NCBI GenBank assembly: GCA_026983775.1
Contig: JALSTK010000063.1
Coordinates: 1 to 64,000 of the forward strand
Length of the DNA: 64,000 nt
Direction: 5' to 3'
Source of the DNA: Calditrichia bacterium
Lineage (GTDB): Bacteria > Calditrichota > Calditrichia > Calditrichales > Calditrichaceae
In this document: positions 943-22,591 of the stretch, piece after piece
Layout of the letters: each line of letters opens with the position of its first letter
Numbering within the stretch: the first letter of the stretch is position 1
Program-made: the position numbers and the translations under genes
The notes under the pieces: model-generated
Databases searched by the model: none
What the model saw: the letters and a program-made list of their open reading frames with translations, nothing else
Told to the model about the DNA's origin: nothing

Positions 943-2856
943 TTATTTATAACTACGCTGGGTTAGGGTGACATTCTCAAATTCAAGGGGTTCTTTATGT
1001 AATTCCCATTTTTTCCCGAGGCCCTTGAATTCCCAGGCAGCAACATAGGTGAAATTTTCGTCATCACGAAGGGCTTCCCCTTCTTCCGTTTGATGCTCTT
1101 CGCGGAAATGTCCGCCGCAGGATTCTTCACGGTGTAAAGCATCCTGTGCCATCAACTCACCGAATTCGAGATAATCGGCCACCCGGCCGGCAAATTCAAG
1201 ATTTTTATTCAGCGAGTCTTCGCTACCGGCAATCTTAACATTTTGCCAGAACTCTTCACGTAACCTGGGGATCTCTTCCAAGGCTTTTTTCAGCCCTTCT
1301 GCATTACGGGACATACCCACATAATTCCACATGATACTACCGATCTCCTGATGGAATTCCTTGACCGTTTTAGAACCTTTTATTGATAGTAACTTATCAT
1401 ATTTGGCTTTAGCTTCGGCTTCTGCCTCTTTAAAGGCTTCATGATCGGTGCTGACCTTTTCCAGCTTGGTGCCTCCGAGGTAATTACCGATGGTATAAGG
1501 CAGAACAAAATAACCATCGGCAAGGCCTTGCATCAGAGCGCTGGCCCCCAGACGGTTGGCGCCGTGATCGGAAAAGTTGGCTTCGCCAATGACATGCAGC
1601 CCCGGAATAGTACTCATTAAATTGTAATCGACCCATAAACCGCCCATTGTATAATGAGGTGCAGGGTAAATACGCATCGGCACTTGATAGCCGTCTTCAT
1701 CGGTAATCATTTTATACATTTCAAATAGGTTACCATACTTTTCTTCAATAACCTCCCGACCGAATTCTTTGATGGCATCACGGAAATCCAGATAGACGGC
1801 TAATCCTGTTTTACCTACACCGCGGCCTTCATCGCAAACCATCTTGGCGTTTCTGGAAGCCACATCTCTCGGGACCATATTGCCGAAGGTGGGATACTTG
1901 CGTTCCAGATAATAATCTCTCTCGTCTTCCGGAATTTCATTAGGCGGCCGTTTATCGCCTTTCTTCTTAGGAACCCAAACCCGGCCGTCGTTTCGCAGGC
2001 TTTCGCTCATCAGGGTTAGTTTGGATTGGTAGTCACCCGAGCGGGGAATACAAGTCGGGTGGATTTGTACATAACAGGGATTGCCAAAAAGCGCACCCTT
2101 TTTGTGGGCCCGCCAAATGGCAGAAGCATTCGAATTCATAGCATTGGTTGAGAGGAAATAAACCTGAGCATAACCGCCGGTTGCCAGAACAACCGCGTCA
2201 CCGACATATCGTTCGAATTCTCCGTTTATCAGGTTACGGACAATAATACCCCGTGCCTGGTCATTAATCATAACCAGTTCCACCATTTCCCTGCGGGGGA
2301 GGATTTCGACCATACCGGAATGAACCTGGGCCATTAGCGCGCTGTAAGCCCCCAGAAGTAATTGCTGGCCGGTTTGACCCCGGGCATAGAAGGTACGGGA
2401 AACCAGGGCCCCCCCGAAAGAACGATTGGCCAACAAACCGCCATATTCACGCTGATACGGAACGCCCTGGGCAACGGTCTGATCGATGATGTTATTGCTG
2501 ACCTGGGCAAGACGGTAAACGTTTGCTTCGCGGGACCGGTAATCACCGCCTTTTATGGTATCATAAAATAAGCGCCAAATACTATCCCCATCATTCGGAT
2601 AATTTTTAGCAGCATTGATTCCGCCCTGGGCACCAATACTATGGGCCCGGCGAGGTGAATCCTGGATACAAAAACTTTTAACGTGGTAACCGAGTTCTGC
2701 CATACTGGCCGCAGCAGAAGCACCGGCCAACCCGGTTCCAACCACCAAAACAGTAAACTTTCTTTTGTTCTTGGGGTTGACAACTTTCATATCAAATTTA
2801 TGCTTATCCCATTTTTCTGCTAAGGGACCACCCGGAATTTTAGAGTCAAGTTTCAT
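943..2856 (-). CDS. sdhA: Succinate dehydrogenase/fumarate reductase flavoprotein subunit
   Basis: Catalytic subunit with covalently bound FAD that interconverts succinate and fumarate. The N-terminus has the dinucleotide-binding fold [12 protein letters not shown], followed by the FAD region [13 protein letters not shown]. Later come the substrate-site stretch [12 protein letters not shown] and [20 protein letters not shown] place the start at 2856 (MKLDSK), which gives 637 residues. An AGGAGG precedes it, and the ATG overlaps the sdhC stop as ATGA, typical of translational coupling. The longer open frame up to 3000 would read into sdhC and is not supported. The acidic C-terminal domain resembles the Bacteroidetes/Bacillus type that works with menaquinone; that is inference. 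Confidence 0.95.
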
Positions 2857-7317: not shown

Positions 7318-8502
7318 TCATGGTTTACGTTCAAAGAAATCGGCAATAATGATATTACGATCCTTATCCAGCAATGCCTCCAGTTCACCGATATAAATAT
7401 GTCCGTCAGCCGGGACGCTGCTTCCGTCTTTTGTTTTGGAAACGGATTTTCGTATATATTCGGATAGCTTATTTAGGTCTTCATCGTAAAAATTCACGGC
7501 CGTCTGTCCGATCTTGAGATCGGATAATTCATTATCCAGGTTACTGGCATCGATTTGGCATATCCAGCTCTCTTCATACGGATTGTATTCCAATATTTCC
7601 AAATTGTCCAGTAAAGCCTTATTGACTTTGGTAACCGTGCCGGATACCGGAGACCAGAATGGAATGGAAGTTGCTCCCTGTTTAACGGAAAACAGATTTT
7701 GTCCTTTCTTTACTTCCATACCGATATTGGGTAGATCGATTCCATCAATTTGGCCGATTAATTTACGGGCGAAATCATCAATGCCGACATTCACTTCGCC
7801 ACTTTCATTGATACTGGCCCAAGCGTGGCCGGCTGAAATAAACACACCTCCCGGGATGGAAAACTCGACCGTATTTTTTGCTTCCGGCTCCTCTCCGTGA
7901 TGGGTAATATGGATTTTACTCTTAATTTGCTTGTTAATTCGCTCCTGGCGGCGGATGAGGAATTTCTTAACCATTGCCAATAATTCATCTTCTGTGAACG
8001 GTTTTTGCACATAATCCATGGCACCGTATTTCATGGTTTCCACGGCCGTATCTACCGAGGCATATCCCGTAATAATGATAACATCGATGTCCGGCCGGAG
8101 GTGTTTAACGGCTTTACATACATCAACACCGTCCATTTCCGGCATTTTCAGATCGGTAAATACAAAATCGTAATTATGCCTCTGGATAAGGCTCAGAGCT
8201 TCCTGTCCGGTCTCTACCGTATCCACATTATAACCGTCCAGAACCAAAATCTTACGGAAGCTGTCCAAAATGATTTCTTCATCATCCACGGCCAAGATAC
8301 GTGCTTTAGGATTTTCCACTTCCACTCGTTTCAGGGTCTTGGATTCGTGGCTGAAGTCCAGATTCAGATTGGTGGATAAGGCCTCTTCACGCTCTTTGCG
8401 CCTTTTCTTTTCATTAATGCCTTTCAGGACAAGCCTGATGATATAGTCGGCAATAATGAAAATAATAACGGCTATGATGAGTAGTAATAGTCCCATTTTC
8501 AC
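7318..8502 (-). CDS. Membrane-anchored response regulator with GcvH-like domain
   Basis: 394 residues. One N-terminal transmembrane helix (about 4-26) precedes a basic linker and then a CheY-like receiver domain (about 67-190) with acidic pair DD near 73, phospho-acceptor Asp near 117 in FTDLKMP, and Lys in VQKPF. A domain like glycine-cleavage protein H follows (about 205-350: GHAWASINESGEVNVGIDD, SPVSGTVTKVN). The position that carries lipoyl-Lys in GcvH aligns with Ala in QGATSIPFWSPVSG; a nearby Lys lies four residues earlier. There is no DNA-binding domain, so the output is probably protein-protein. It lies 36 bp after the second regulator and upstream of otr. A receiver held at the membrane is unusual. 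Confidence 0.85.
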   Translation of the reverse strand: MKMGLLLLIIAVIIFIIADYIIRLVLKGINEKKRRKEREEALSTNLNLDFSHESKTLKRVEVENPKARILAVDDEEIILDSFRKILVLDGYNVDTVETGQEALSLIQRHNYDFVFTDLKMPEMDGVDVCKAVKHLRPDIDVIIITGYASVDTAVETMKYGAMDYVQKPFTEDELLAMVKKFLIRRQERINKQIKSKIHITHHGEEPEAKNTVEFSIPGGVFISAGHAWASINESGEVNVGIDDFARKLIGQIDGIDLPNIGMEVKKGQNLFSVKQGATSIPFWSPVSGTVTKVNKALLDNLEILEYNPYEESWICQIDASNLDNELSDLKIGQTAVNFYDEDLNKLSEYIRKSVSKTKDGSSVPADGHIYIGELEALLDKDRNIIIADFFERKP

Positions 8503-8538: not shown

Positions 8539-9345
8539 CTAAATAGTTTCCGCCGTACATGGGATTAATCGCTTTGATTCAAAATCAAGATCCGTGGGAA
8601 TAATGGTGTACATCCAGCCCTCAAAATAGGGGTCTTTTTCGATCAGGGAATGATCTTTCAATAAATTCTTATTACGTTTAACGATCCGTCCGCTAATGGG
8701 AGCCAGAAGGTGATGTACCAATTCATCATTCGTGTAAATTTGAGCGCAGGAGTTTCCCTGCACAATTTCTTCTTCTATATTCATAAATTCGATTCGCTCA
8801 ATACCTTCGATAGTACGTAAAAAAAGGTCCGTTAGACCGACTTTTAAACTTCCGTCTTCTTCCAGTAAAGACCAGCTGCCGTAACCAAGGCGATAATACT
8901 TGGCCGGACAAGGTACGAAAAAGATGGTATCATCATCAATAGGTCCCTGGTGGGCCTCAAATGCTTCCTGGATTTCTCTGTAGCGCATTCCGCGGGAGAG
9001 GCAGCTAAGCAGTTCTTCCACGGTAAAGGGTTTGGGTAAAAAATCGATCGCCCCGCTGTAAAGGGATTTTACGGCATTTTCTACCGTAGAGTAGCCGGTA
9101 GTTATGATCACCGGAATATTAATATCTTCCTGACGTAAACGATCCAATAGTTCAAAGCCATCCAGCTGGGGCATCATAATATCGCTTATAATAATTTTAT
9201 ATTTATTTTTGGAAATTTTATCCAGACCGATCAGGGCATCTTGTGCCGTATCAACCTGCCAGTCTCTAAGTGAACACAGGCGAACAATAGAATCCAGAAT
9301 AACCTGTTCGTCATCGATAGCAAGAACATCAAATATTTTACTCAT
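8539..9345 (-). CDS. Response regulator with GcvH-like domain
   Basis: 268 residues: a receiver domain (about 5-125; DD near 11, Asp near 55 in IISDIMMPQ, Lys in LPKPF), then a GcvH-like domain (about 145-260: GYGSWSLLEEDGSLKVGLTD, LLAPISGRIVKRN). By alignment to GcvH the lipoyl-Lys position is Asp (NDELVHHLLAPISG), so lipoylation is unlikely. It lacks the membrane anchor of its neighbour at 7318 and has no DNA-binding domain. It is 15 bp downstream of the sensor kinase gene and is its likely phosphorylation partner. The two regulators look like diverged duplicates. Confidence 0.85.
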   Translation of the reverse strand: MSKIFDVLAIDDEQVILDSIVRLCSLRDWQVDTAQDALIGLDKISKNKYKIIISDIMMPQLDGFELLDRLRQEDINIPVIITTGYSTVENAVKSLYSGAIDFLPKPFTVEELLSCLSRGMRYREIQEAFEAHQGPIDDDTIFFVPCPAKYYRLGYGSWSLLEEDGSLKVGLTDLFLRTIEGIERIEFMNIEEEIVQGNSCAQIYTNDELVHHLLAPISGRIVKRNKNLLKDHSLIEKDPYFEGWMYTIIPTDLDFESKRLIPCTAETI

Positions 9346-9360
9346 AGCACATTTCTTTAT

Positions 9361-11220
9361 TTAAGCAACGGGCAAGCGAACCGTAAAAGTTGTACCAACG
9401 TTTACTTCGCTATCCACGGTAATGGTTCCGTTATGATTGTCAATAATTCCCCAAATGACCGCCAGTCCGAGGCCGGTTCCTTTTTGGCCTTTGGTTGTGT
9501 AAAACGGCTCAAAGATCTTGGGAAGATTTTCTTTTGGAATTCCGCAACCGGTATCACTGATTTTAATTTCGATATAATCTTTAGCCCCTTCATTTTCGAT
9601 TTCCTGCCAAAATTGCCAGTCGCAGCCCTTGGCTGTGCAGCCTTCAAAGCGTCCCTTACCCGGAATTTCAAAGAAATAAACCGGAGAACCGCATTTGGGG
9701 CATTTTTTCTTTTTATCGATTAAGGATACCTGACATTTGGGGCAAAACAGGTCTAACTGGGCGCCTTCTTTCATTTGAATGCCATAGTGGTTCTCGTTTT
9801 TTCCATAAATGGGATCCAGATGTATAAAGCCGCTGTTCCCATCGGCCTTTGCCCCCATTTTAATGGAAGCAAGCCCATGAATTTTCACGACGGGGTCCAT
9901 TAAGTTATGACCTTTGGGACATAAGGCCTGTTTGACTTTTGCATTCCCATATGGTTTAAGACTGAGCACGGAGCTTTTGATACTTACTCTTCCGCCCTTC
10001 TCTCCGATGGCATGACCTGCATTGACCAGCAAATTAGTAAAAACCTGTTGGATCTGATTGGCATCAACAGTTACTTCCGGTAAATTCTCCGGTAGATCCT
10101 TAACGATTTCAATATTGGAAATGGTCAGTTGATTTTCAACCACTTTTAAGGAATGGTTAATAATTTGATTAATATTTGCCTTGTTCTTTTTGGGAACCGA
10201 CTGGCGGGCAAAATCCAATAAACCCTTGACAATTTCCCGGCTCCTTTTCGTTTCACGCACAATGACAGATAGGTCGTTCTGTAATTCCGGCTGATCTTTG
10301 GTTCGTTTAAGCAGGAAGCTGGAATAGGTCAGAATACCGGTAAGCGGATTATTGATTTCGTGGGCCACACCGGCTGCCAGACGACCGAGCGAGGCCAGTT
10401 TATCCGATTGAAAAAGCTGGAGCCGGGCTTCGGCTAATTTTTTAGTCATATTATTGAAGGACCGGGATAAAATACCCAATTCGTCATTACCTAATTCGGG
10501 CAGCGTGTAGTTTAAATTACCGGCAGCCACTTCCTTGGTGGCATCGACCAATTCATTGACCGGTTTAGAAACCCAAATACGCACAAAAAACCATAAAATA
10601 AAGCTGATGGCCAGGATGGAGACAATAGCGAAGATGACCATTTTTAATTTTGCGTCAGCGATTTTCTGGTCTACAAATTTGAGGCAAATCGTCAAATCCA
10701 AAACGCCCAGCACTTTCTTGTTCCTGGGATGGACATGGCAGGGTGCATTATAGCAGGACGGTTCATTATAAATCGGATTAATAATTCCGAAGATACGGGC
10801 CGAATCCGGATAAAGCCGAAAAATGCGCGTTCGATTTTTCATGGGTAGCTTCTCCATGGGAACCCCTGAAGCATGGCAGGTATAACAGGCTTCCGCCTTT
10901 TTATCCAGCATCTTCCCTATGACGGTGGTATCGGAAGAGTAAATAATTTCCCCTTCCTTATTGAGGATACGGACCGTATGTATACATTGCTGTCGGCCAA
11001 TGGTTTTGATAATCTTATGAATTAATTCGCGATTATTATTAAGCATGGCATCTTTAGTGCTGCTTTTAATAATTTCGCTCTCCTGGTCCGCATGGCGTTC
11101 GATTTCGGTGAGCAGAACTTTACTCTGGGCGCGAATATTAAAATACGCATAAGCACTAATAATTATAATAACAGCAAGACTAACGGTGAATATCAGTTTA
11201 AAACTTATTTTATTGAGCAT
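9361..11220 (-). CDS. Haem-motif sensor histidine kinase with zinc-ribbon insertion
   Basis: 619 residues. TM1 (about 8-27), an external sensor domain (30-192), TM2 (about 194-214), HAMP (215-265), a dimerisation domain with phospho-acceptor His 287 in AAGVAHEINNP, and a C-terminal ATPase domain. The sensor part carries CYTCH (112-116) and CYNAPCH (156-162), a CX2CH and a CX4CH c-type haem motif. The ATPase domain is split: after the N box (NLLVNAGHAI) about 125 residues intervene before DTGCGIP. That insertion holds CPKGH (434), CPKC (493), CPKC (507) and two more Cys (528, 533), which look like zinc ribbons. GTGLGLAV follows normally. It sits between the nine-heme cytochrome and the GcvH-type regulators, so it probably senses the redox state of the periplasm. 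Confidence 0.9.
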   Translation of the reverse strand: MLNKISFKLIFTVSLAVIIIISAYAYFNIRAQSKVLLTEIERHADQESEIIKSSTKDAMLNNNRELIHKIIKTIGRQQCIHTVRILNKEGEIIYSSDTTVIGKMLDKKAEACYTCHASGVPMEKLPMKNRTRIFRLYPDSARIFGIINPIYNEPSCYNAPCHVHPRNKKVLGVLDLTICLKFVDQKIADAKLKMVIFAIVSILAISFILWFFVRIWVSKPVNELVDATKEVAAGNLNYTLPELGNDELGILSRSFNNMTKKLAEARLQLFQSDKLASLGRLAAGVAHEINNPLTGILTYSSFLLKRTKDQPELQNDLSVIVRETKRSREIVKGLLDFARQSVPKKNKANINQIINHSLKVVENQLTISNIEIVKDLPENLPEVTVDANQIQQVFTNLLVNAGHAIGEKGGRVSIKSSVLSLKPYGNAKVKQALCPKGHNLMDPVVKIHGLASIKMGAKADGNSGFIHLDPIYGKNENHYGIQMKEGAQLDLFCPKCQVSLIDKKKKCPKCGSPVYFFEIPGKGRFEGCTAKGCDWQFWQEIENEGAKDYIEIKISDTGCGIPKENLPKIFEPFYTTKGQKGTGLGLAVIWGIIDNHNGTITVDSEVNVGTTFTVRLPVA

Positions 11221-11238: not shown

Positions 11239-12057
11239 TTAAGGTTTTTTTTCAAAATGGCATTTTTGACAATTCTCGTCAATATCCTGTTCATGACAGC
11301 TTATACAGGTGTCATGCGAAAGCTCCCGCTTCGGATGGGGGCCATGGCATTGTACACAGCTTTCGTTTGTGTGACAACGGGTACATTTATCGGTGTAATC
11401 CCGGGCATGGGCACGGTGGGGGAAGATGACCCACGGCGCATCCTCATTGTCCGATTTCAGGATAAAGCGATCCGGCACATTAACATTTTCATGCGACGTC
11501 TTTAAAACCTTTATCCTGGCATCTATCATGGCCTTGCTCATTGTTTCGCTTTTTTTCTGGTGACAAGAGATACAGTCCGTTTTCTTAGTCCAATTGGTAT
11601 TCCAGCTTCGATGGCAATTGATACAGAGCTGATGATACGCCCCTTCCAGATCCGGTTTATCGACAGTCTTTCCACGAGAATCCGGAGAATGACAGGTGGA
11701 GCATTTCAGGATTTTACCGGGAGGGTTGTGATGGTGGCAGGATTTACAACCACCGCCCATTTGGGCCATCTCGGCATGCATTTTATGAGAAAAAATAACG
11801 CCGTTAAATTTTTTGCTTAACGTATCCAACAGAACAAAATCCGGAGCTTCTTTTAAGGAATGCTTGGTTTGAAGTCCCTTCCGCTGGAAAGAGGGCATGA
11901 TTTTTAAACAGGGCTTTTCTGCGGTTGGTTTTTTACAAAAATGACATTCCTGGCAGTTAAGAGGAAATTCCGAGTGATGTTTGGTAGTCGTATTTTGCGT
12001 AAGGCCTAATGAGCTAAAGACTAATAATATCCAAAGTGATGTGAGCAACGGTTTCAT
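11239..12057 (-). CDS. Nine-heme periplasmic c-type cytochrome
   Basis: 272 residues with a signal peptide (MKPLLTSLWILLVFSSLGLTQ) and nine CXXCH sites: CQECH, CKSCH, CSTCH, CINCH, CISCH, CTRCH, CVQCH, CISCH and CQKCH. The central HHH and the FSHKMHAEM and FPHRAHA segments supply likely distal His ligands, as in class III-type (cytochrome c3/Hmc-like) proteins. Its start overlaps the NrfD gene stop as ATGA (12054-12057), so the two are translationally coupled. It probably accepts electrons from the HybA-like/NrfD-like pair and passes them on, for example to Otr. I do not recognise a named orthologue. Confidence 0.9.
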   Translation of the reverse strand: MKPLLTSLWILLVFSSLGLTQNTTTKHHSEFPLNCQECHFCKKPTAEKPCLKIMPSFQRKGLQTKHSLKEAPDFVLLDTLSKKFNGVIFSHKMHAEMAQMGGGCKSCHHHNPPGKILKCSTCHSPDSRGKTVDKPDLEGAYHQLCINCHRSWNTNWTKKTDCISCHQKKSETMSKAMIDARIKVLKTSHENVNVPDRFILKSDNEDAPWVIFPHRAHARDYTDKCTRCHTNESCVQCHGPHPKRELSHDTCISCHEQDIDENCQKCHFEKKP

Positions 12058-13298
12058 TTAATCACCCCCCGCAATGCGAATTTTGTTTTAGGCTTAATAG
12101 ATTTAGCCGGCTGAGCAATGACCGGAAAGATTAAAACCAAAACCCGGTAGAGCAATATTTCTATGGCGATCAGCCCTAAAGTAATGGAAATTTCGCCGAG
12201 AGAGGGGAAATAGCTTTTAAAAGAATAAGGGGGTGTATAGGCAATCAAAAATACATTAATTCTGAACATTAACACACCGAACGCGGCCAGATAAGAAGCG
12301 GCTAATAATAAGGTCCGTGAGTGCAACACTTTGTCCCAGAAAAACATACGCATGGGAATAATGACCCCGAACAAGACTTCGATGACCCACATAATGCTTT
12401 CCAAATTGATATCCATAAGATATACATAAGTGCCGCGGATAACCATATCCCCCAGTTTGAATCCCAGATAAACGCCTAAGAGAGGACCTACAAAACGTCC
12501 CAGACGGGCCAATACATCCATTTCCGGCTTTAGTCCGAAGGATTTGGATGCGGTTAAGGACTCAATAATGACCATAGGGTAGCCGACGGAAATGGCGGAC
12601 AGTAAAAAGAGTAAAGGAGTGATCGGTGACTGCCACAAAGGATGAATTTTATGGCCGGCGATCATCATAAGCGTACCCAGGGAAGATTGGTGTAAACAGG
12701 ATAAGACGACACCTAATATAATGAAAAAGAACATGGTTTTCTGCAGAAAGCCGTCTATCCAGCGTAAGGTGAGATCGGTTATTTTATTTAATTTTCTTAG
12801 TAGGCCATGCATATGCACTCTTCCCATAAAACGTTCGGTTACCACAGGGAAAAATTCCACATAAAGGGTACTGACGTACGTCATGACACAAATGCCAACT
12901 TCGAACAAAACGGAGTTGCTATTCCCCATAATCGGAACGTGCCAGATGTTGTAATAACGGCCGAGGTCGAACATGACCCCGAGAGCGACAAAAGTATAGC
13001 CCAGCATGGCAGTCATGATAGCCGGCCGTACGATATGATGAAAATCTTCACGATGAAAGATATGTACCAGGGCCGACGTAGTAAAACCGCCGGCAGCTAA
13101 CGCAACGCCGCTGGCCACATCAATGCCGATCCAAATCCCCCAGGGGTGTTGATTGTCCAGATTGGTGACCGCTCCTAAGCCTAAGTAAAATCTAAGAAAA
13201 GACCAGATGAGGCCATTGGCAGCAATAATAAGAAGAACGATCACACCGGGTGTAAGAAAGGGGCGCTTTACCGGTTGCGCTTCCAAAGGGGTTTCCAT
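12054..13298 (-). CDS. NrfD/HybB-family quinol-oxidoreductase membrane subunit
   Basis: 414-residue polytopic protein with about ten hydrophobic helices. It resembles the HybB/NrfD/PsrC family, whose members exchange electrons between the quinone pool and an external iron-sulfur protein without binding haem. Typical traits are the early NGLIWSFLRFYLGLGAVTNLD and WGIWIGIDVASGVALAAGG segments. The gene lies 9 bp after the HybA-like ferredoxin gene and overlaps the nine-heme cytochrome gene by 4 bp. The three should form one complex that moves electrons between menaquinol and periplasmic cytochromes. The direction of flow is not visible in the sequence. Confidence 0.88.
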   Translation of the reverse strand: METPLEAQPVKRPFLTPGVIVLLIIAANGLIWSFLRFYLGLGAVTNLDNQHPWGIWIGIDVASGVALAAGGFTTSALVHIFHREDFHHIVRPAIMTAMLGYTFVALGVMFDLGRYYNIWHVPIMGNSNSVLFEVGICVMTYVSTLYVEFFPVVTERFMGRVHMHGLLRKLNKITDLTLRWIDGFLQKTMFFFIILGVVLSCLHQSSLGTLMMIAGHKIHPLWQSPITPLLFLLSAISVGYPMVIIESLTASKSFGLKPEMDVLARLGRFVGPLLGVYLGFKLGDMVIRGTYVYLMDINLESIMWVIEVLFGVIIPMRMFFWDKVLHSRTLLLAASYLAAFGVLMFRINVFLIAYTPPYSFKSYFPSLGEISITLGLIAIEILLYRVLVLIFPVIAQPAKSIKPKTKFALRGVIK

Positions 13299-13307
13299 AT
13301 TCGTCTC

Positions 13308-14204
13308 CTATTCCTCTTCTTCATTCTTATTGTTTTTTCCTAACCACATAATACCGCCTAATAAAGCATACAGAGAGACGGGTGGTATAAAAAATTTAAA
13401 CAGAGCATGTTGAATCGGCTCGGTAGCTCCGGGAACCGGTTCCGTTCCCACATCCGGAAAGTCGATTTTTTCGAATTCTACGGGGGAAAGATAGAGCCAG
13501 GCCGTACCCCCCACTTCCTTTTCGCCATAAACATGATTCACATATCTATCCTTATTCTCATCGATACGGCGATGGGCCTCTTCCAATAAATCGTAGCGCT
13601 TACCGAAAGTGAGTGCTTCTACGGGGCAGGCCTCAACACAGGCCGGAAGCTTACCATCCATCTGACGATCATAGCAGAAGTCACATTTCATTATTCTGGG
13701 TTGCAGCGCCTTATCGTATTCGAAAGCAGGCACCTGAAAAGGACAGGCCACCATACAATAACGACAACCGATACAACGGCTTTGATCCCAGATAACGGCC
13801 CCGTTTTCCTGTTTGGAAAAGGCGCCTACGATGCAGGCCGAAACACAGGCCGGATGATCACAGTGCATGCACTGTACTTTTACGTCAAGAGCCTGTTGTA
13901 GTGAATCTTGCTCATATTGATTTATGACCGTTAATGCGTGCGTGTCCGGTCTGCGAAAAACTTCTAAGACAGAGCGGTCATCATACTGTTCCAGCGGACC
14001 CACCGGTAAATCATGAGCTTCCTTGCAGGCAATCTCACAACGCCGGCAACCGATACAGACGGTCGTATCTACCAGGACGCCCTTTCGCTCATCTGTAAGA
14101 ACATTTTTAGGAGTGGCCCTGGCATCTTTCACATCCAGCCCAACCATGGTTCCACCTAATAATCCGGCCGTCTTCAAGAAATCGCGTCTAGATTGCGAAC
14201 CCAT
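13308..14204 (-). CDS. HybA-like Tat-exported 4Fe-4S ferredoxin
   Basis: 298 residues. The N-terminus MGSQSRRDFLKTAGLL is a twin-arginine signal. Four cluster-binding sets follow: CIGCRRCEIACK, CMHCDHPACVSAC, CIGCRYCMVACP and CDFCYDRQ...CVEACP. A single hydrophobic segment near the C-terminus (IPPVSLYALLGGIMWLG) is a tail anchor as in HybA. I use the ATG at 14204, preceded by GGAGG, because it puts the RR motif at the N-terminus; the open frame extends 17 codons further upstream. It is the first gene of the minus-strand operon, and a sigma-54-like promoter lies about 65-80 bp upstream of the start codon. Confidence 0.9.
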   Translation of the reverse strand: MGSQSRRDFLKTAGLLGGTMVGLDVKDARATPKNVLTDERKGVLVDTTVCIGCRRCEIACKEAHDLPVGPLEQYDDRSVLEVFRRPDTHALTVINQYEQDSLQQALDVKVQCMHCDHPACVSACIVGAFSKQENGAVIWDQSRCIGCRYCMVACPFQVPAFEYDKALQPRIMKCDFCYDRQMDGKLPACVEACPVEALTFGKRYDLLEEAHRRIDENKDRYVNHVYGEKEVGGTAWLYLSPVEFEKIDFPDVGTEPVPGATEPIQHALFKFFIPPVSLYALLGGIMWLGKNNKNEEEE

Positions 14205-14268
14205 CTCCGCCTCCACATTTTTAATGTTTGTTAAATTTATTACAAAGTTACACACTCAAATAAATGCA

Positions 14269-14602: not shown

Positions 14603-16030
14603 ATGGGGTGTTCCGTGAAAATTAGAAACTTGCTTTATCTTTGTATCTTAATAGCAGCGTGCTTCAGCTGTACCCGAGTTATTGAAGAGCAGGATGCAGG
14701 TAAAAACACGATTGCCAGCAATGATGGTTGCGTTTATTGCCATACCAATCAGAATCGTTTAAAAGTTCTGGCGCCTCCCGTAAAGGAAGAGGGCGGCGCA
14801 GGCGGTGGCTGAGGCGGTGCAGTCGCTCCGTTGGAGCCATGGCAAAAAGTTTTTATAAATCTGGGCAAAAAATCTTCTCCGGCAGAGCTGGATTATCATA
14901 TGCAGGCTTTAAGCTGCGTTGATTGTCACAATGGAGATAATACCAAACCCAACAGTAAGGAAGACGCGCACAAGGGATTGATTGTTGATCCGTCGGAATA
15001 TGATGCAAACGGCCGGAATGTCTGTGCTAAGTCGGGATGCCATGATGCCGTTGCAGGGTCATTTAAAAACGGTCTTCATCAGAAACTTTGGGGCGAACAA
15101 CACTGGGTGGCTTTACGTGCCGGGAAGGAGTCGCTTTCACAGTGTCCGCAGTCGACTCAGGATGGTTTTCAGGAATGTACCAGTTGTCATGCTACCTGCG
15201 GCCAATGCCATGTTTCGATACCCAATAGTGCCGGAAAAGGCTTTGTTAATTCCCACAAATTTTTAAAGGTGCCCGATCAGACCAATAATTGTATGGCCTG
15301 TCATGGGTCCCGAGTTGCCCATGATTTTCTGGGGGACTATGAATTTTATCCCGTTCGCTATAAAGACGTTCATTCCAATTCTATGACTTGTATGGACTGC
15401 CATAAAAAAGAAGAAATGCATAATTCTGTGGCGGAAGGCACAGATCGTTATCATTATGATCAATTACCCTCTTGTGAAGAAAGCGGGTGTCATGCGGACA
15501 CATTAGCCACGGCAAATGTTTACCATCGAACCCATTTCAACGATCTGTCCTGCTATGTCTGCCACTCCCAGCGCTATAATAACTGTACGGCGTGTCATGT
15601 AAAGAATGAGTGGAAAACGGATGCCGATTATCAAAACAATAATCCGGCAGAGGACTTTCGCATCGGCTACAATTATCAAAAAACGGATGAAGGGCATTTC
15701 CGCTTCAAGTTTATAGTAGTAAGGCATATTCCTGTGGCTAAAGATACTTATTCCAATTGGGGTGCCGCTTCGGCCGATCTGCCCGATTACGATCAATATC
15801 CGACCTGGAAATATGCTTCGCCACACAATATCCGTCGTTTCACGGCACGTACCGATACGAGCGGAGGCAAGCTGTGTTGGGAAAGCTGTCATACCAAACA
15901 AGGCTTTGGTAATCCGGATAACAAGAAATATTTTCTGTTTGACAGCTATATTCAGACCAACTGGCCGGAGGAAGAAAATGCCAATAAATCGGTTGTTGTA
16001 GATGGTCACTTACCCAGCGGGTGGGAATAA
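14603..16030 (+). CDS. Multiheme cytochrome lipoprotein with in-frame UGA (candidate selenoprotein)
   Basis: One frame runs from 14603 to 16030 with a single TGA at 14810-14812 (codon 70). Read through, it gives 475 residues. The first part has a lipoprotein signal (LIAAC) and haem site CVYCH. The second part has CVDCH, CTSCH, CGQCH, CMACH, CMDCH, CYVCH and CTACH, two CX4CH (CAKSGCH, CEESGCH) and one CX3CH (CWESCH). The UGA lies in a Gly-rich stretch, GGAGGG-U-GGAVAPLEPW. Downstream codons before the next ATG (14831) keep sensible coding. Neither half works alone: the first has one haem and a secretion signal, the second has ten sites and no signal. Selenocysteine is the simplest reading. Start may instead be the GTG at 14615. 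It heads the conduit cluster and is probably outer-membrane anchored. Confidence 0.75.
14813..14844 (+). promoter_or_regulatory. Candidate bacterial SECIS hairpin after the in-frame UGA
   Basis: GCTCC (14825-14829) pairs with GGAGC (14833-14837) around loop GTT. The stem extends downward with T-A (23/39), a G-U pair (22/40) and TGC-GCA (18-20/42-44), broken by A-G and C-C mismatches. The loop begins 17 bases after the UGA and its first base is G. Both match the general rules for bacterial selenocysteine insertion elements. A bulged U as in E. coli fdhF is not evident. Confidence 0.55.
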
Positions 16031-16071
16031 AACGATAAATAACGGTTAATATATTAGTTAAGGAGGTCATG

Positions 16072-16995
16072 ATGAAGAAGTTTTTTGTATTATTTTTAAG
16101 TGGTTTAGTGCTGCTTGCTTTTTTCGGTTGTAGTGAGAAGAAAAAGGTCAATGAGTTTGATACATTGGTCAACTATCTGGAAAGTCAGCCGGCCGAGTCC
16201 GGACAGTGGGTAAATAATATGTCGGGCTGGATTCTAAATTATTCGGGATTAACCCTGAGTGACTACTTTATTGTAGATTTACGCTCTTCGGCGGATTATA
16301 ATAAAATGCATCTGGAAGGAGCTGTAAATACTACATTGCCGGGAATTTTCGATGCAGTTGCCAATGCAACCAAACCGGTACTTTGTGTTTGCTATAGCGG
16401 CCAAACGGCTTCCTATGCGCATACGATTCTACGCTTAAAGGGTGTAGAGGCCTATGTATTGAAATTCGGGATGAGTATTGTGGATGCCAGTCTGGACAAA
16501 TGGACCGGTAACTGTTCTAATCAGTTTGCTAATGACCCTAACTGGACAAAGACGGCTTCGGCTGCACTGCCTAAATTTGATCCCCCCAAATTGGATACCG
16601 GTAAAGATAAAGCGGAAGATATTCTTGATGCCCGTATAAATGAAGCTCTCGGTGCCTGGGGAACGCGTTTGGTTTCAGCCTCAACGGTTGTTGGCAATCC
16701 GGATAATTATAATATCATGTGTTATTGGCCTAAAAGTGAATATGATAAATACGGCCATATTAAAGGTGCTTACCAATTAACTCCCCAAACGTTGACCAAA
16801 GATAAGAACCTTTATGTGTTTGATCCTGCCGGCAACAATGTACTTTATTGCTATACCGGTCAGACCGCTGCGGCCACGATTGCCTATCTGTATGTGCTCG
16901 GTTATGATGTACAGTCCATAAAATTCGGTACTAATGCCATGATCTGGGATGAACTGGAAGGACATAAATGGCCCAAACCGTGGGCATCCAAATAA
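16072..16995 (+). CDS. Two-domain rhodanese-like lipoprotein
   Basis: 307 residues with a lipoprotein signal (MKKFFVLFLSGLVLLAFFGC). Two rhodanese-like domains follow. The first has DLRSSADYNKMHLEGA and active-loop CYSGQTAS; the second has SEYDKYGHIKGAYQL and CYTGQTAA. In rhodaneses this loop Cys carries sulfur (or selenium) as a persulfide. Both Cys are present, so both domains may be active. AGGAGG lies five bases before the ATG at 16072, which is better placed than the ATG at 16069. It is 38 bp after the UGA-containing cytochrome. Rhodanese lipoproteins next to porin and cytochrome genes recall ExtH of the Geobacter ext clusters; that assignment rests on memory of synteny. Confidence 0.88.
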   Translation: MKKFFVLFLSGLVLLAFFGCSEKKKVNEFDTLVNYLESQPAESGQWVNNMSGWILNYSGLTLSDYFIVDLRSSADYNKMHLEGAVNTTLPGIFDAVANATKPVLCVCYSGQTASYAHTILRLKGVEAYVLKFGMSIVDASLDKWTGNCSNQFANDPNWTKTASAALPKFDPPKLDTGKDKAEDILDARINEALGAWGTRLVSASTVVGNPDNYNIMCYWPKSEYDKYGHIKGAYQLTPQTLTKDKNLYVFDPAGNNVLYCYTGQTAAATIAYLYVLGYDVQSIKFGTNAMIWDELEGHKWPKPWASK

Positions 16996-17086: not shown

Positions 17087-18277
17087 ATGAAACGTATACT
17101 ATTAGCAATATTCATATGTACGACTCTGCTCAGGGCTCAACAGGTGAGGGGAACTCTGTCCACAGGAGTCTATATGGGAACCCCATTCTGGAATCGGGCG
17201 AATTTTTCGGAAGGAAATGTGATCGATGCCGAAGATTCCTTTTACCGTACGGTTAATCAGTTAAAATTGCAGGGGAAATTCGGAGAACATTTTCGGGTCG
17301 TTCTCAATACCATGCGTAATGACGGTTTCCAGAGTGAGAATCATCTGGCCGAAACGAAAATCTTCCGTTTCAATGTCCAATATCGTTTTAATCGGGGCAA
17401 GGTAATGTTAGGACGAATGGCACCTTTCCAAAGGTGGATTCGCGGCTCAATAGACGGTTTGGATATCCGTCTGAAAACTACAGCCCAACTTTCTTTTCAT
17501 GTTATCGGTGGCCAGTACATTCCTTACGGTAAATTATATGACAGCGAGCGTGGCAGAAGACTGGCGTATGCCGATGTCCGCTATCGGTTGAGCTCGAGCG
17601 CTTATAAAATTAAAGTATATAATGATGAAGGTGTTACCAAAGCAGGTGGAGATCTGTTCGGTCGTTTCGGTAAACTGCGTTTTAATGCGAATTATGGCTA
17701 TGATCTGACCCATAAAAAACTGGCAGATGGCAGTTTTAACCTATTTTATCCCCTCTCTTCCAAATGGTTTTTAACGGGTGACTACCGTTTATTCCGGGCC
17801 CAATCCTGGATGTTGGGCAAAGAGATTAAATTTAATGGCTATAGGATAGAGCGTTTTTTAATGAGCAGCCGTTATGGTCTGTCCGCAAATTATATGCTGA
17901 ATTTTACGCAAATGGTCACTCTTACAGAGACCAACGAAGACTATCTGACTATGCTTACGGTGGCCGGGCGTTTTTTCCAACTGGGATTTAACTATTTAGG
18001 CAGTAATCAGAATATGCAACGTATGGGAATGGTGTTGGGCGGTCAGTATCGATTCTTTAACCGCCTGCAGGTGTATGGAGGCGTGACACCGGTTGATTAT
18101 CTTTTCCTCAATGAAGAAGAGCATCAGCAAACGATTGCCTATTATTTCAGGATGCATTATCAAATATTTAAAAGCCTGTCGGTCAATGCCAATCTGAATT
18201 ATTATCAAAAAAATGAGACCCTGCATTCAAATCTTCGCGGCGGAGTCCGGATAATGTATTATTTTGGGAGCAATTAG
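17087..18277 (+). CDS. Outer-membrane beta-barrel, porin-like conduit protein
   Basis: 396 residues with a signal peptide (MKRILLAIFICTTLLRAQ). The mature chain alternates short amphipathic strands rich in Tyr, Phe, Arg and Gly (FRVVLNTMRNDGF, FRFNVQYRFNRGKVMLGRMAPF, VNANLNYYQKNET) and ends in GVRIMYYFGSN, as in outer-membrane barrels. It is flanked by cytochrome and rhodanese genes, which suggests that it is the channel of a porin-cytochrome conduit (ExtI-like by position). It has no haem motifs. The next gene begins 2 bp after its stop. Strand number and pore size cannot be read from sequence by eye. Confidence 0.78.
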   Translation: MKRILLAIFICTTLLRAQQVRGTLSTGVYMGTPFWNRANFSEGNVIDAEDSFYRTVNQLKLQGKFGEHFRVVLNTMRNDGFQSENHLAETKIFRFNVQYRFNRGKVMLGRMAPFQRWIRGSIDGLDIRLKTTAQLSFHVIGGQYIPYGKLYDSERGRRLAYADVRYRLSSSAYKIKVYNDEGVTKAGGDLFGRFGKLRFNANYGYDLTHKKLADGSFNLFYPLSSKWFLTGDYRLFRAQSWMLGKEIKFNGYRIERFLMSSRYGLSANYMLNFTQMVTLTETNEDYLTMLTVAGRFFQLGFNYLGSNQNMQRMGMVLGGQYRFFNRLQVYGGVTPVDYLFLNEEEHQQTIAYYFRMHYQIFKSLSVNANLNYYQKNETLHSNLRGGVRIMYYFGSN

Positions 18278-18279
18278 CA

Positions 18280-19149
18280 ATGAAGAAATTGATCTTTGGC
18301 GTTTTTCTATTGTTCGGTGTTATATGGGCATCCCAACAGATTCAATGGAAGTCGGATCTGATTTTCTCCCATAAATTTCATCATGATGAAGTAGAAGCGG
18401 ATTGTGCGGTATGCCATAAATCGGCCTTGACCAGTGAGCAGGGTACGGATGACCTTTTACCGGCAATGGAAACCTGCTATAGTTGTCATGACCAGGACGA
18501 TACGGAATGTAGCGTCTGCCATAAAACACCGGATGAACCGCTTGTTTTGCCGCGTATCACCGATTATTCAAAGAAATTTAATCATAAGTTGCACACAGAA
18601 AAAGGGATTGCCTGTCTAACCTGTCACGTTGGAATTAATGGAGCCCGGGGAGTAGAAGGCTCGCTCCATTTGCCGAAAATGGCTCGATGCATGGATTGCC
18701 ATAAAACCCCGCAAGATAGAGAGGGCTGTTACCTCTGTCATGAAAGAAACGAATCATTACTTCCTACAAGCCATCTGACGGACTGGCAACATCGCCACGG
18801 AGCGGTGAGCGAAGCCGAGGGACGTCAAAACTGTCGCTCCTGCCATCAGGAGGACGATTGTGTACAATGTCATCAGGGGGAGAATCTGGATAATCAGACG
18901 CACCCGGCTCAGTTTATCGCTACTCATTCCTTAAGCTATTTGACCCGTGAGAGTAATTGTTTTGCCTGCCACGAAGGAAAAACCTACTGCCGGGAGTGTC
19001 ATATGGATGTGGAGCATGTGGTACCGATGAATCATACCCTGGCCAACTGGCCGGCAGAGGGCCATGCTCAGGCTGCCCGTACGGATTATGATAATTGTAC
19101 GGTTTGCCATCAGTCCGACGATCCGATTTGCAGCCAGTGCCATAATTAA
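18280..19149 (+). CDS. Twelve-heme periplasmic c-type cytochrome
   Basis: 289 residues with a signal peptide (MKKLIFGVFLLFGVIWASQQ) and twelve CXXCH sites: CAVCH, CYSCH, CSVCH, CLTCH, CMDCH, CYLCH, CRSCH, CVQCH, CFACH, CRECH, CTVCH and CSQCH. FSHKFHHDE and FNHKLHTEKG supply distal His ligands of the c3/c7 type. Haem density is about one per 24 residues, so the protein is nearly all cofactor. It is tightly coupled to the barrel gene and probably fills or docks to the conduit on the periplasmic side. The final CXXCH is one residue from the C-terminus. Confidence 0.9.
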   Translation: MKKLIFGVFLLFGVIWASQQIQWKSDLIFSHKFHHDEVEADCAVCHKSALTSEQGTDDLLPAMETCYSCHDQDDTECSVCHKTPDEPLVLPRITDYSKKFNHKLHTEKGIACLTCHVGINGARGVEGSLHLPKMARCMDCHKTPQDREGCYLCHERNESLLPTSHLTDWQHRHGAVSEAEGRQNCRSCHQEDDCVQCHQGENLDNQTHPAQFIATHSLSYLTRESNCFACHEGKTYCRECHMDVEHVVPMNHTLANWPAEGHAQAARTDYDNCTVCHQSDDPICSQCHN

Positions 19150-19377: not shown

Positions 19378-20367
19378 ATGTTCAAATCAGTAAGTGTATT
19401 TTTATTGATTTTCTCTTTGAGCTTTTTCATGGCTTGTTCCAGCAGCACCGAACCTAAAAAGGTATCGGAGTTCGATGTGGTTCGGAAAGCCCTGGATACC
19501 TATGTATCCGGAACCCAGGCTCCGGTTATTAGCGCTCAGGCTTTGCATGATAATTTAAACAGCTATTTTGTAGTCAGTGTCCGGGCTGCAGGCGATTATG
19601 CCAAAGGGCATGTCCCGGGAGCCATCAATATTCCCTGGCGGACCATTGCTCAGAAGGAAAGCATTGACAAGTTACCCGCGGATGGGAAAAAAATTGCTGT
19701 ATATTGCTATACCGGCCATACCGGTCAGGTCTCTTGCACGGTTTTAAATGCGCTTGGCTTCGAGGCGTACAATATGAAGTTTGGAATGATGGCCTGGACA
19801 ACAGATCCAACCGTACGCGTGCAAACCGCTTTTAGCGAAGAAACCGATGCCCATGACTATGCCGTTGAAACTAAAGCTAACACCCCATCCAAGACCTATG
19901 ATTTACCTTCCTTCGACAATACGGATTCGGATAAGGATGAAGATATCATCCTGGCTGCGGCCAATGCATATGTTTCTGTAAAAGCACCGGTAACTTCAGC
20001 CGCCGCCTTGCATGCTTTGATAACGGATAATGATACATCCAATGATCCTCAGATTGTCAGCGTGCGAAAGGCGGAGCACTATGCCATTGGGCATATTCCG
20101 GGCGCGATTAATATTTATTGGAAAGATATCGCCAAGACGGAAAATCTTAAAAAGTTAGACCCCAATCGTCCCATTGTCGTGTATTGTTATACGGGACACA
20201 CCGGCCAGATCGGGGCAACGGTTTTAAACATGCTCGGTTACGATGCTTTGAATCTGAAATTCGGGATTATGAGTTGGACCAAGGATCCCAACGTTCGTGT
20301 TCAGGCTGCTTTTAGTAACGAAGGGGATGCACATAATTATACCGTTACGACGGGTTCCAATCCTTAA
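19378..20367 (+). CDS. Second two-domain rhodanese-like lipoprotein
   Basis: 329 residues with a lipoprotein signal (FFMAC, Cys near 21). It has two very similar rhodanese domains, each with a VSVR...GHxPGAINI core and active loop CYTGHTGQ (near 119 and 269), each followed by a MKFG/LKFG-type segment and a VRVQ-A-F-E/N-E-DAH-Y repeat. The near-identity shows internal duplication. The loop differs from the first rhodanese protein (CYSGQTA/CYTGQTA). It has its own upstream gap with a CRP-like site and its own terminator, so it is probably a single-gene unit within the conduit region. A role in sulfur or selenium handling at the cell surface is possible but unproven. Confidence 0.88.
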   Translation: MFKSVSVFLLIFSLSFFMACSSSTEPKKVSEFDVVRKALDTYVSGTQAPVISAQALHDNLNSYFVVSVRAAGDYAKGHVPGAINIPWRTIAQKESIDKLPADGKKIAVYCYTGHTGQVSCTVLNALGFEAYNMKFGMMAWTTDPTVRVQTAFSEETDAHDYAVETKANTPSKTYDLPSFDNTDSDKDEDIILAAANAYVSVKAPVTSAAALHALITDNDTSNDPQIVSVRKAEHYAIGHIPGAINIYWKDIAKTENLKKLDPNRPIVVYCYTGHTGQIGATVLNMLGYDALNLKFGIMSWTKDPNVRVQAAFSNEGDAHNYTVTTGSNP

Positions 20368-20595: not shown

Positions 20596-20680
20596 AAATA
20601 AAATGAAAAATATCCATTAAACCCATAGTGAGAATGAATCGATTTATATAAAGGCAATTTACTAATCAAACGAGGTGTTC

Positions 20681-22591
20681 ATGCGAAAATTTTACATTCT
20701 GTTATTCTTCCTGCTTTCCTCCTATTCATTTTCCACTTTATTCGCTCAGGATTTAACCTGTCTCGATTGTCATCAGGAACATTCCTTAACGAAGAGTATC
20801 AATGATTCCACGGAAGTATCCGTTTATGTGGATACGACTCAATTGGCCCAGTCGGTACATGCCGATCTGGAATGCACGGATTGTCATGCGGTGGGCGCCG
20901 ATCATCCCAATGGCGGCCCGGTTCCGGACCCCACCTGTTCGAATTGCCATGATGACGAGCAGGAAGATTACGCAAAGAGTATACACGGTAAGGCGTATTC
21001 TAACGGTAATAAAACAGCTGCCAATTGCTGGAGTTGCCATGGCGCACATAACATCAGGGCACAAGATGACAGCACCTCCATGGTCAATAATAGAAACTTG
21101 CTTACAACCTGCGGTTCCTGTCATTCAAGGCCGGATATAATGAAACAATTTGGTGGCCATGCAGTGGACCCTGTTGCCGCCTTTAAAGAATCCATCCACG
21201 GAAAAATCTTTACCGAAGACCCGGAAGCGCCGGTTGCCAATTGCGTGGCCTGCCATGGTAGTCATGCCATTTTACCGGTTATCGAACCGGAGGCCAAATT
21301 AAATAAACTCAATATTCCCAAAACTTGTGGCGCTTGTCATGTGGAGGAGGAAAAAGAATATTACCAGAGCATTCACTGGGATGCGCTCAGGAGAGGCCAT
21401 TACGAAGCACCGGTTTGTACCGATTGCCACGGGGAACATAATATTCATTTAGCGGAAGGAGCAAAATCGGTTACGAATCCCAAACTTCAGGCCACCAAGC
21501 TTTGTGCTTCTTGCCACTCGTCTCCATCATTGATGGGAAAATTCGGACTGGACCCTCACCGACTTGATTCGTATATGAAAACATACCATGGTCTGGCTGT
21601 GCTGAAGGGATCACCCAGGGCGGCTACTTGTACCAGCTGCCATGAAGTCCATGCCATTCGCAGCAGTACGGACTCACTCTCCACGGTTTTTGTCGGCAAT
21701 CGTCAGAAAACCTGCGGTCAGTGTCATCAAAATGTTAGCAAAGATTTTGCTAATATCGATGTTCATCCCGTTACACTCAAGGGGCGAAATCCGGTTGCCT
21801 ATTTCTTTAAGATTATGTATACCTGGATGATTATTCTTGTGATCGGTGGAATGTTTCTACATAATTTTATTATTCTGTTTTACTATATACGCCAAAAGTG
21901 GAATACGGAGAAAAACGAACCGCGCTATCAAAGGTTCCAACGGGGGGAGGTCTATGAGCATTTTCTGCTATTTTTGGCTTTTTTCTTTTTGGCGGTTACG
22001 GGCTTTGCCTTAAAATTCCCAAATGCCGGTTGGGTGAAATTGCTGGTAAGTATCGGTATGGATGAAACCGTACGCTCTGTGGTGCACCGTATTGCGGCCG
22101 TTACCTTAGCGATCCTTTCCTTGATTCAACTTTATCGGTTTGTTATGACGCATAAAGGAAGGAAAGATTTCTTGTCCTTAATCCCAACCCGCGATGATTT
22201 GACCCAAATTTATCAGAATTTGCGCTTTTATCTGGGACTTTCCAAAACGCGACCTAAATTCGGCCGCTATGATTATGCTGCCAAGGCTGAATATCTGGCT
22301 TTGATGTGGGGTAATATGGTAATGGGATTAACCGGTTTTACGCTCTGGTTCCCGGAAATAGTGATGAGATATTCACCTACCTGGGTGTTTGAAACATTTC
22401 AGGTGATTCATTATTTCGAAGCCTGGCTGGCTGTTTTGGCTATTCTGGTTTGGCATATGTTCTTTGTAATCTTTCATCCGGAAAAATATCCAATGGATTT
22501 TACCTGGATAGACGGTAAGATAGCCGAAGAGGAATTTAAGCATGAACATCCTTTAGAGTATAAGGAGTTGATCGAAAATAAAGAAAAATGA
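20681..22591 (+). CDS. CbcL-like multiheme cytochrome c / cytochrome b fusion
   Basis: 636 residues. A signal peptide (MRKFYILLFFLLSSYSFSTLFAQ) leads to about 340 external residues with eleven CXXCH sites: CLDCH, CTDCH, CSNCH, CWSCH, CGSCH, CVACH, CGACH, CTDCH, CASCH, CTSCH and CGQCH. Then come about five hydrophobic helices (WMIILVIGGMFLHNFIILFYY, HFLLFLAFFFLAVTGFAL, VHRIAAVTLAILSLIQLYRF, YLALMWGNMVMGLTGFTLWF, FEAWLAVLAILVWHMFFVIFH) with paired His, like the di-haem b subunits of hydrogenase and formate dehydrogenase. Geobacter CbcL has this fusion and oxidises menaquinol for extracellular respiration. The same role is inferred here: quinol electrons to the periplasmic cytochromes of the conduit. 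The start follows GAGGTG. Confidence 0.9.
   Translation: MRKFYILLFFLLSSYSFSTLFAQDLTCLDCHQEHSLTKSINDSTEVSVYVDTTQLAQSVHADLECTDCHAVGADHPNGGPVPDPTCSNCHDDEQEDYAKSIHGKAYSNGNKTAANCWSCHGAHNIRAQDDSTSMVNNRNLLTTCGSCHSRPDIMKQFGGHAVDPVAAFKESIHGKIFTEDPEAPVANCVACHGSHAILPVIEPEAKLNKLNIPKTCGACHVEEEKEYYQSIHWDALRRGHYEAPVCTDCHGEHNIHLAEGAKSVTNPKLQATKLCASCHSSPSLMGKFGLDPHRLDSYMKTYHGLAVLKGSPRAATCTSCHEVHAIRSSTDSLSTVFVGNRQKTCGQCHQNVSKDFANIDVHPVTLKGRNPVAYFFKIMYTWMIILVIGGMFLHNFIILFYYIRQKWNTEKNEPRYQRFQRGEVYEHFLLFLAFFFLAVTGFALKFPNAGWVKLLVSIGMDETVRSVVHRIAAVTLAILSLIQLYRFVMTHKGRKDFLSLIPTRDDLTQIYQNLRFYLGLSKTRPKFGRYDYAAKAEYLALMWGNMVMGLTGFTLWFPEIVMRYSPTWVFETFQVIHYFEAWLAVLAILVWHMFFVIFHPEKYPMDFTWIDGKIAEEEFKHEHPLEYKELIENKEK

Follow-up and report, generated by a model that had tools for sequence, protein, structure and literature searches.

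We analysed a window of 64,000 nucleotides, the whole stretch of DNA examined here, from the Calditrichia bacterium contig JALSTK010000063.1, in which 14603-16030 on the plus strand forms a single open frame save for one in-frame TGA at 14810-14812. Six sense codons (GGC GGT GCA GTC GCT CCG) separate this TGA from a TTG at 14831, the mechanical start of the second ORF of the gene. The residue context is EEGGAGGG-U-GGAVAPLEPW, the peptide spanning the site reads ...GGG-U-GGAVAPLEPWQK, and in the mechanical ORF the UGA is residue 70 of 475. The encoded protein qualifies as a multihaem c-type cytochrome, since it has a signal peptide followed by 11 CXXCH-type motifs (8 CXXCH, 2 CX4CH and 1 CX3CH), one upstream and ten downstream of the UGA. 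The initial annotation had described two same-frame ORFs split by the TGA with six codons between them, one haem site before and ten after it, and the Gly-rich context GGAGGG-UGA-GGAVAPLEPW, all of which we confirmed in the sequence.

The ATG at 14603 lacks a ribosome-binding-like sequence; a GTG at 14615 has GGGG 8-11 bases upstream and opens a signal peptide, MKIRNLLYLCILIAACFSC, that matches those of relatives. On this reading of the sequence alone, GTG 14615 is more likely than ATG 14603 to be the translation start, and the putative Sec undecahaem cytochrome lipoprotein gene, with its one in-frame TGA, 11 haem motifs and full-length homologues spanning the UGA, is placed at 14615..16030 (+). 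Within it, on the same strand, the codon for Cys23 (14669..14671), the presumed lipid-anchored cysteine closing the signal peptide, is invariant where the N-terminus is present, and we infer that it sits in a lipobox-like context. The first haem-binding motif, CVYCH (14729..14743), lies 5' of the UGA and is invariant. It is followed by the codons of a Gly-rich arm, AGGG-U-GGA (14798..14821), the UGA itself, a SECIS-like hairpin (14825..14837), and ten more haem-binding motifs, CVDCH to CWESCH (14915..15892), which are invariant or nearly so among 60 aligned members.

Directly downstream of the gene, on the plus strand, lies a tandem rhodanese-domain lipoprotein (16069..16995; two stretches matching PF00581), the constant neighbour of the family, followed by a porin-like beta-barrel candidate (17087..18277) that has no Pfam or NCBIfam match and has a homologue in the same place in Calditrichota loci. 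Then come a c7/c3-type multihaem cytochrome kept in many loci (18280..19149; PF14522, PF14537), a second tandem rhodanese lipoprotein (19378..20367; two PF00581 stretches, CYTGHT loops), and a multihaem cytochrome with a b-type membrane domain (20675..22591; formate-dehydrogenase-gamma-like and NrfB/DmsE-like stretches). Divergent from these, on the minus strand, 11239..14255 encodes an HmcA-like cytochrome, an NrfD-type membrane subunit and a 4Fe-4S subunit, which are kept next to the Sec cytochrome in three other loci (L030, L032 and L033). This unit is possibly a quinone-linked partner complex of the Sec cytochrome, and we infer that the neighbouring modules would link its haems to quinone and possibly to the outside of the cell. 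Further along, two minus-strand genes (7318-8502 and 8539-9345) encode response regulators, each fused to a GCV_H (glycine cleavage H, lipoyl-type) domain, and the histidine kinase beside them (9361-11220) has a haem-like CXXCH motif in its sensor part.

When 60 relatives were searched for homologues of the cytochrome, almost all of the family members found had exactly one in-frame TGA, each at the same codon. In the phylum of the window's genome, a member was found in 17 of 40 genomes (16 with TGA, 1 with Cys); the seventeenth is reached only if G023, a weak partial match, is counted. Taken strictly, there are 16 members of full or nearly full length, in TGA or Cys form, and the partial G023. 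Because all full-length homologues in the phylum but one share the TGA codon, and the exception has Cys, the UGA is more than chance. We then scanned 84,980 genomes, which gave 466 relatives, of which 80 were retained. At the UGA column, 38 of these have TGA, 37 have Cys (TGT or TGC) and 5 have neither; with the window included, the counts are 39, 37 and 5 of 81. In most Sec/Cys members, the motif around the column is GG(U/C)GG. One further gene, L127, has its UGA in another arm context (GST-U-GDAG), and a rhodanese still follows it. The family occurs in Calditrichota, Marinimicrobia, KSB1, Gemmatimonadota, Ignavibacteria, Bacteroidota and Desulfobacterota; no homologue was found in the phage collection. 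Cys-form relatives include the named strains Stygiobacter electus and Desulfatitalea alkaliphila, so the function is open to study without selenium. The locus of the isolate S. electus has the same kinds of genes as the window: next to the GGCGG cytochrome it encodes a tandem rhodanese, a porin-like barrel, a c7-type cytochrome and one more multihaem lipoprotein.

Homologous sequence is continuous across the UGA site with no gap in conservation, and no homologue was found in which the two halves are independent genes. Since the TGA recurs in independent assemblies, a sequencing error is excluded; two genes or a frameshift are likewise ruled out by conservation.

We also compared the RNA downstream of the codon. 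In the window, bases +13 to +17 after the UGA pair with +21 to +25, forming five pairs around a GTT loop at +18 to +20 (14830-14832). The family hairpin, counted from the base after the UGA, pairs positions 12-17 with 21-26 around a GUU loop. When five core pairs (+12 to +16 with +26 to +22) were scored, at least four of the five were kept in 36 of 39 UGA genes, the window included, but in only 1 of 37 Cys genes (Mann-Whitney p 3e-12). The Cys gene that keeps the whole hairpin, L048, is from a genome without SelA and groups with L052 inside a Sec clade; it probably changed from Sec to Cys recently, with the hairpin remaining as a relic. Five of the six hairpin pairs show double-sided change, and covariation was 0.29 versus 0.095 in shuffles (none of 500 shuffles reached the observed value), a signal that drops in slid registers. 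In a second set, made up of Marinimicrobia genes from which the stem had not been defined, 19 of 22 retained the hairpin, and new stems appeared among them, for example GGAGCC-GUU-GGCUCC, GGUACC-GUU-GGUACU and GAGUC-GUU-GACUC; the three exceptions (L123, L124 and L125) have a shifted stem with the loop AGUU. Of 34 Leu codons lying over the loop, 30 are TTG, as against 20% elsewhere in the same genes. Global folding-energy z-scores were no lower for Sec-form than for Cys-form segments, and Rfam gave no match at gathering scores in the window. Because only the fixed-register stem separates the two forms, our claim for the hairpin rests on pairing and covariation.

These results bear on whether the UGA might be a true stop, with either two proteins made or a broken gene. 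Such a reading can point to the TTG six codons past the stop, but it has to account for a UGA conserved across phyla, for full-length Cys relatives with both flanks conserved, for a hairpin that covaries, and for a second part on which no signal peptide was found. We regard it as refuted at the level of sequence and, overall, as highly improbable.

The genome of the window (99.5% complete, 179 contigs) contains SelA, a tRNA-Sec above the gathering score, SelB above the cut-off and two SelD genes. One of the SelD genes (L110; G000:C63:66230-67153) begins 2.2 kb past the end of the window and lies inside a 740-residue open frame, so that it is probably fused to another domain. The other (L111; G000:C153:27419-28351) has an in-frame TGA of its own and is a second selenoprotein candidate. 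Among 17 UGA-bearing genomes checked with SelB and tRNA-Sec models, SelB was found in 16 and tRNA-Sec in 12, and the genomes missing one or the other are incomplete assemblies (72-89%); the same models found neither in the Cys-form genome G016. SelA is present in 30 of 33 UGA-form genomes versus 6 of 37 Cys-form genomes (Fisher p 1e-10). This association follows clades with few switches (2 independent pairs), so the p value should not be taken at face value, and its direction is as expected.

Decoding of the UGA as some other amino acid, through a recoded genetic code or a suppressor tRNA, has the open frame in its favour and nothing else. Neighbouring genes stop at TGA, with genuine stops at 12054-12056 and 2853-2855 (both minus strand) as the initial annotation had held when it set aside a recoded code; relatives have Cys, not Trp or Gly, at the UGA column; and SelA, SelB and tRNA-Sec are all present. 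We find this reading scarcely credible. The UGA at 14810-14812 is instead, by prediction and with no protein-level evidence, almost certainly a selenocysteine codon at which Sec is inserted. It would be read by SelB and tRNA-Sec, guided by the hairpin of 5-6 bp that begins 12 bases after the codon. The selenoprotein reading put forward in the initial annotation, which had judged the hairpin with its G-first GTT loop to suit the rules for bacterial SECIS elements, is thus upheld by the conserved UGA, by an alignment column shared by 38 TGA and 37 Cys among the 80 relatives, by a hairpin that is conserved and covarying in UGA genes and absent from Cys genes, and by the finding of selA, selB, tRNA-Sec (selC) and selD in the genome. 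Neither a sequencing error nor homologues with the halves as separate genes, either of which would have refuted it, was encountered: the TGA recurs, and there are no split homologues.

We next asked what family the cytochrome belongs to. Among the NCBIfam matches listed for the window protein and the members, none was over a curated cut-off, and Pfam gave only general multihaem models for the family. ExtKL, ExtM, Otr and other NCBIfam families found no support as its identity in profile scores. The initial annotation had mentioned a UGA-bearing or split ExtK/ExtL-type cytochrome in Geobacter. This case is borne out by the literature, in which ExtKL has already been proposed as a Sec cytochrome (PMC5877670, PMC6148476), and a Sec multihaem cytochrome is therefore not new as a kind; the window protein, however, is from a separate family. 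The Geobacter sulfurreducens protein ExtKL (GSU2937-2936; NF040886) is likewise a multihaem c-type cytochrome with a predicted UGA-Sec, and ExtH, a rhodanese lipoprotein, and ExtI, which is porin-like, are encoded in its cluster (PMC5877670, PMC6148476). But ExtKL has five haems, and its UGA separates the cytochrome part from a small part that follows, whereas the window cytochrome has eleven haems, with the UGA between haem 1 and haem 2. NF040886 misses the window protein and reaches 1 of 60 members (E 0.004).

Other known systems resemble it in part. Among solved proteins its best relative by sequence, over part of the length only (about 190 positions, E 1.8e-8), is Otr, the octahaem tetrathionate reductase (1sp3, TIGR04315), but Otr has eight haems, and TIGR04315 does not match the window protein and only weakly reaches 1 of 60 members (E 3e-4). 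An inventory from 2026 (PMC13188914), which covers 119 selenoprotein families of prokaryotes, lists a Sec protein that belongs to TIGR04315. We did not find our family in that inventory, although the TIGR04315 Sec member was not compared. The inventory's GSU2204 family and other haem selenoproteins (Table 1) are also CXXCH-containing candidates; GSU2204 is filed as an outer-membrane barrel family, and its model is not among the 25 of 30 families listed for the members. Nor is NF049953 among those listed; it is the model of hypothetical protein DG, which comes from deep-Sep and has the motif GUxG (PMC13188914, PMC12013277), and which was rejected as a candidate. TsoB (NF045694), a rhodanese/DsbD fusion-like selenoprotein, brings rhodanese and Sec into one pathway context, but there the Sec is in the rhodanese-containing protein and here it is in the cytochrome.

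The neighbouring rhodanese was compared across the loci. Among members of the first set with at least 1.5 kb of sequence downstream, a rhodanese gene lies directly downstream on the same strand in 68 of 68 with Sec or Cys, versus 0 of 4 without (p 1e-6). Of 72 adjoining rhodaneses, 54 have two CY(S/T)G(Q/H)T-type active loops and 50 have a lipobox by a simple pattern. In the second, Marinimicrobia set, all 24 Sec/Cys members have an adjacent rhodanese, 21 of them downstream and 3 (L123, L124 and L125, all Sec members) directly upstream, while none of the 5 members without Sec/Cys has one directly downstream. This set contains L113, which is near-identical to L054, and excludes L119, whose gene is cut before the arm; in L116, and likewise in the second copy of both L117 and L118, the C motif is a haem motif and was not counted as an arm. 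L117 and L118 have the order Sec cytochrome, rhodanese, and second cytochrome copy, the last having kept its haem motifs without Sec/Cys (in L117 the arm reads ISDASGQLTPL and the Sec is lost). The rhodanese partner thus belongs with the Sec copy, although these two loci also provide a counter-point, in that a copy without Sec/Cys lies just behind the Sec copy and its rhodanese. Sec/Cys was lost 4 times on the best tree, 2 of them on well-supported branches, and all in the same direction. With so few loss lineages, the p values overstate independence; the link of Sec/Cys to rhodanese is a consistent pattern based on few events.

These neighbours could also be explained by a Sec cytochrome that works with rhodanese and porin in the reduction of selenite or tellurite, a role proposed for Geobacter ExtH/ExtI/ExtKL; the rhodanese would then handle selenium instead of sulfur. 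The Geobacter cluster has the same parts, a rhodanese lipoprotein, a porin and a Sec multihaem cytochrome; an extI mutant was defective in selenite and tellurite reduction, which ties the ext cluster to selenite and tellurite and not to sulfur (PMC5877670); and many members of our family are weakly and locally similar to ExtM. But the window protein and four other scored members fall far below the ext model cut-offs, and ExtKL is absent from the window's genome. Furthermore, about half of the family is of the Cys form, mostly in genomes without SelA, so the role needs no selenium. We consider this explanation rather unlikely.

Together with the rhodanese, the arm suggests another role for Sec/Cys. 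The arm lies between haem 1 and haem 2, and in an AlphaFold model of the cytochrome (mean pLDDT 81) its residues 64-72 are below 50. A fold search of the PDB with this model returned nothing useful, which is no surprise when the protein is packed with haems and the model has none. GGCGG is established in SoxY, of the SoxYZ carrier, as a sulfur-binding and sulfur-carrying motif, in which the Cys bears sulfur intermediates for partner enzymes (PMC6067878, PMC5336275). Unlike the window protein, SoxY is no cytochrome, and its motif is C-terminal with Cys, whereas that of the window cytochrome is internal; neither the window protein nor the family has a Pfam match to SoxY, so the likeness is at most convergent.

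We propose that the tandem rhodanese lipoprotein would load sulfane sulfur, in the form of persulfide sulfur from thiosulfate, polysulfide or sulfur, onto the Sec/Cys, much as the GGCGG of SoxY carries sulfur in Sox. A mobile GG(U/C)GG arm might then swing the sulfur to the haem chain, where the haems would exchange electrons with the cargo, and the electrons may pass onward through products of the nearby genes, namely the c7 cytochrome and the porin or quinone modules. Whether sulfur would be reduced or oxidised is not settled. Alternatively, the Sec/Cys could, without being a mobile carrier, ligate a haem on its distal side or help to form a haem site within the cytochrome that binds substrate. 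Eight invariant or nearly invariant non-motif histidines were counted for eleven haem motifs, which leaves room for some haems to be open or to have a different ligand. However, the arm is Gly-rich and predicted to be disordered, and members that lose Sec/Cys lose the rhodanese as well but keep their haem motifs, which better fits a site for a partner than a structural ligand; we hold a role in haem ligation to be unlikely. In our estimate, the idea of an arm that ferries sulfane sulfur between rhodanese and haems has about an even chance of being right, its cargo, motion and electron route being inferred from the motif and the neighbourhood alone. What the analysis shows directly is that the UGA is conserved, that Sec alternates with Cys at its column, that the SECIS hairpin covaries, that the sel genes are present and that the link to rhodanese is strict. 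As a whole, a Sec cytochrome with a rhodanese-loaded sulfur arm is the best explanation we have, and we lean modestly toward it.

The novelty lies in the family itself, in the SoxY-like arm that it carries and in how strictly it is tied to rhodanese. This Sec/Cys family is absent from NCBIfam models and, as far as checked, from the inventory of PMC13188914, and automated annotation would tend to split the cytochrome gene in every Sec genome, so that the cytochrome is then lost. We suggest, tentatively and at slightly less than even confidence, that a widespread and hitherto undescribed respiratory module passes sulfane sulfur from rhodanese to a SoxY-like swinging Sec/Cys arm in an eleven-haem cytochrome, so that one protein of the envelope combines covalent sulfur carriage with haem electron transfer. 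The constant rhodanese partner leads to a proposal, open to test, on how anaerobes living in sulfidic waters and sediments may couple sulfane sulfur to multihaem chains, one that also bears on the presence of rhodaneses in outer-membrane electron-conduit clusters such as the ext cluster of Geobacter.
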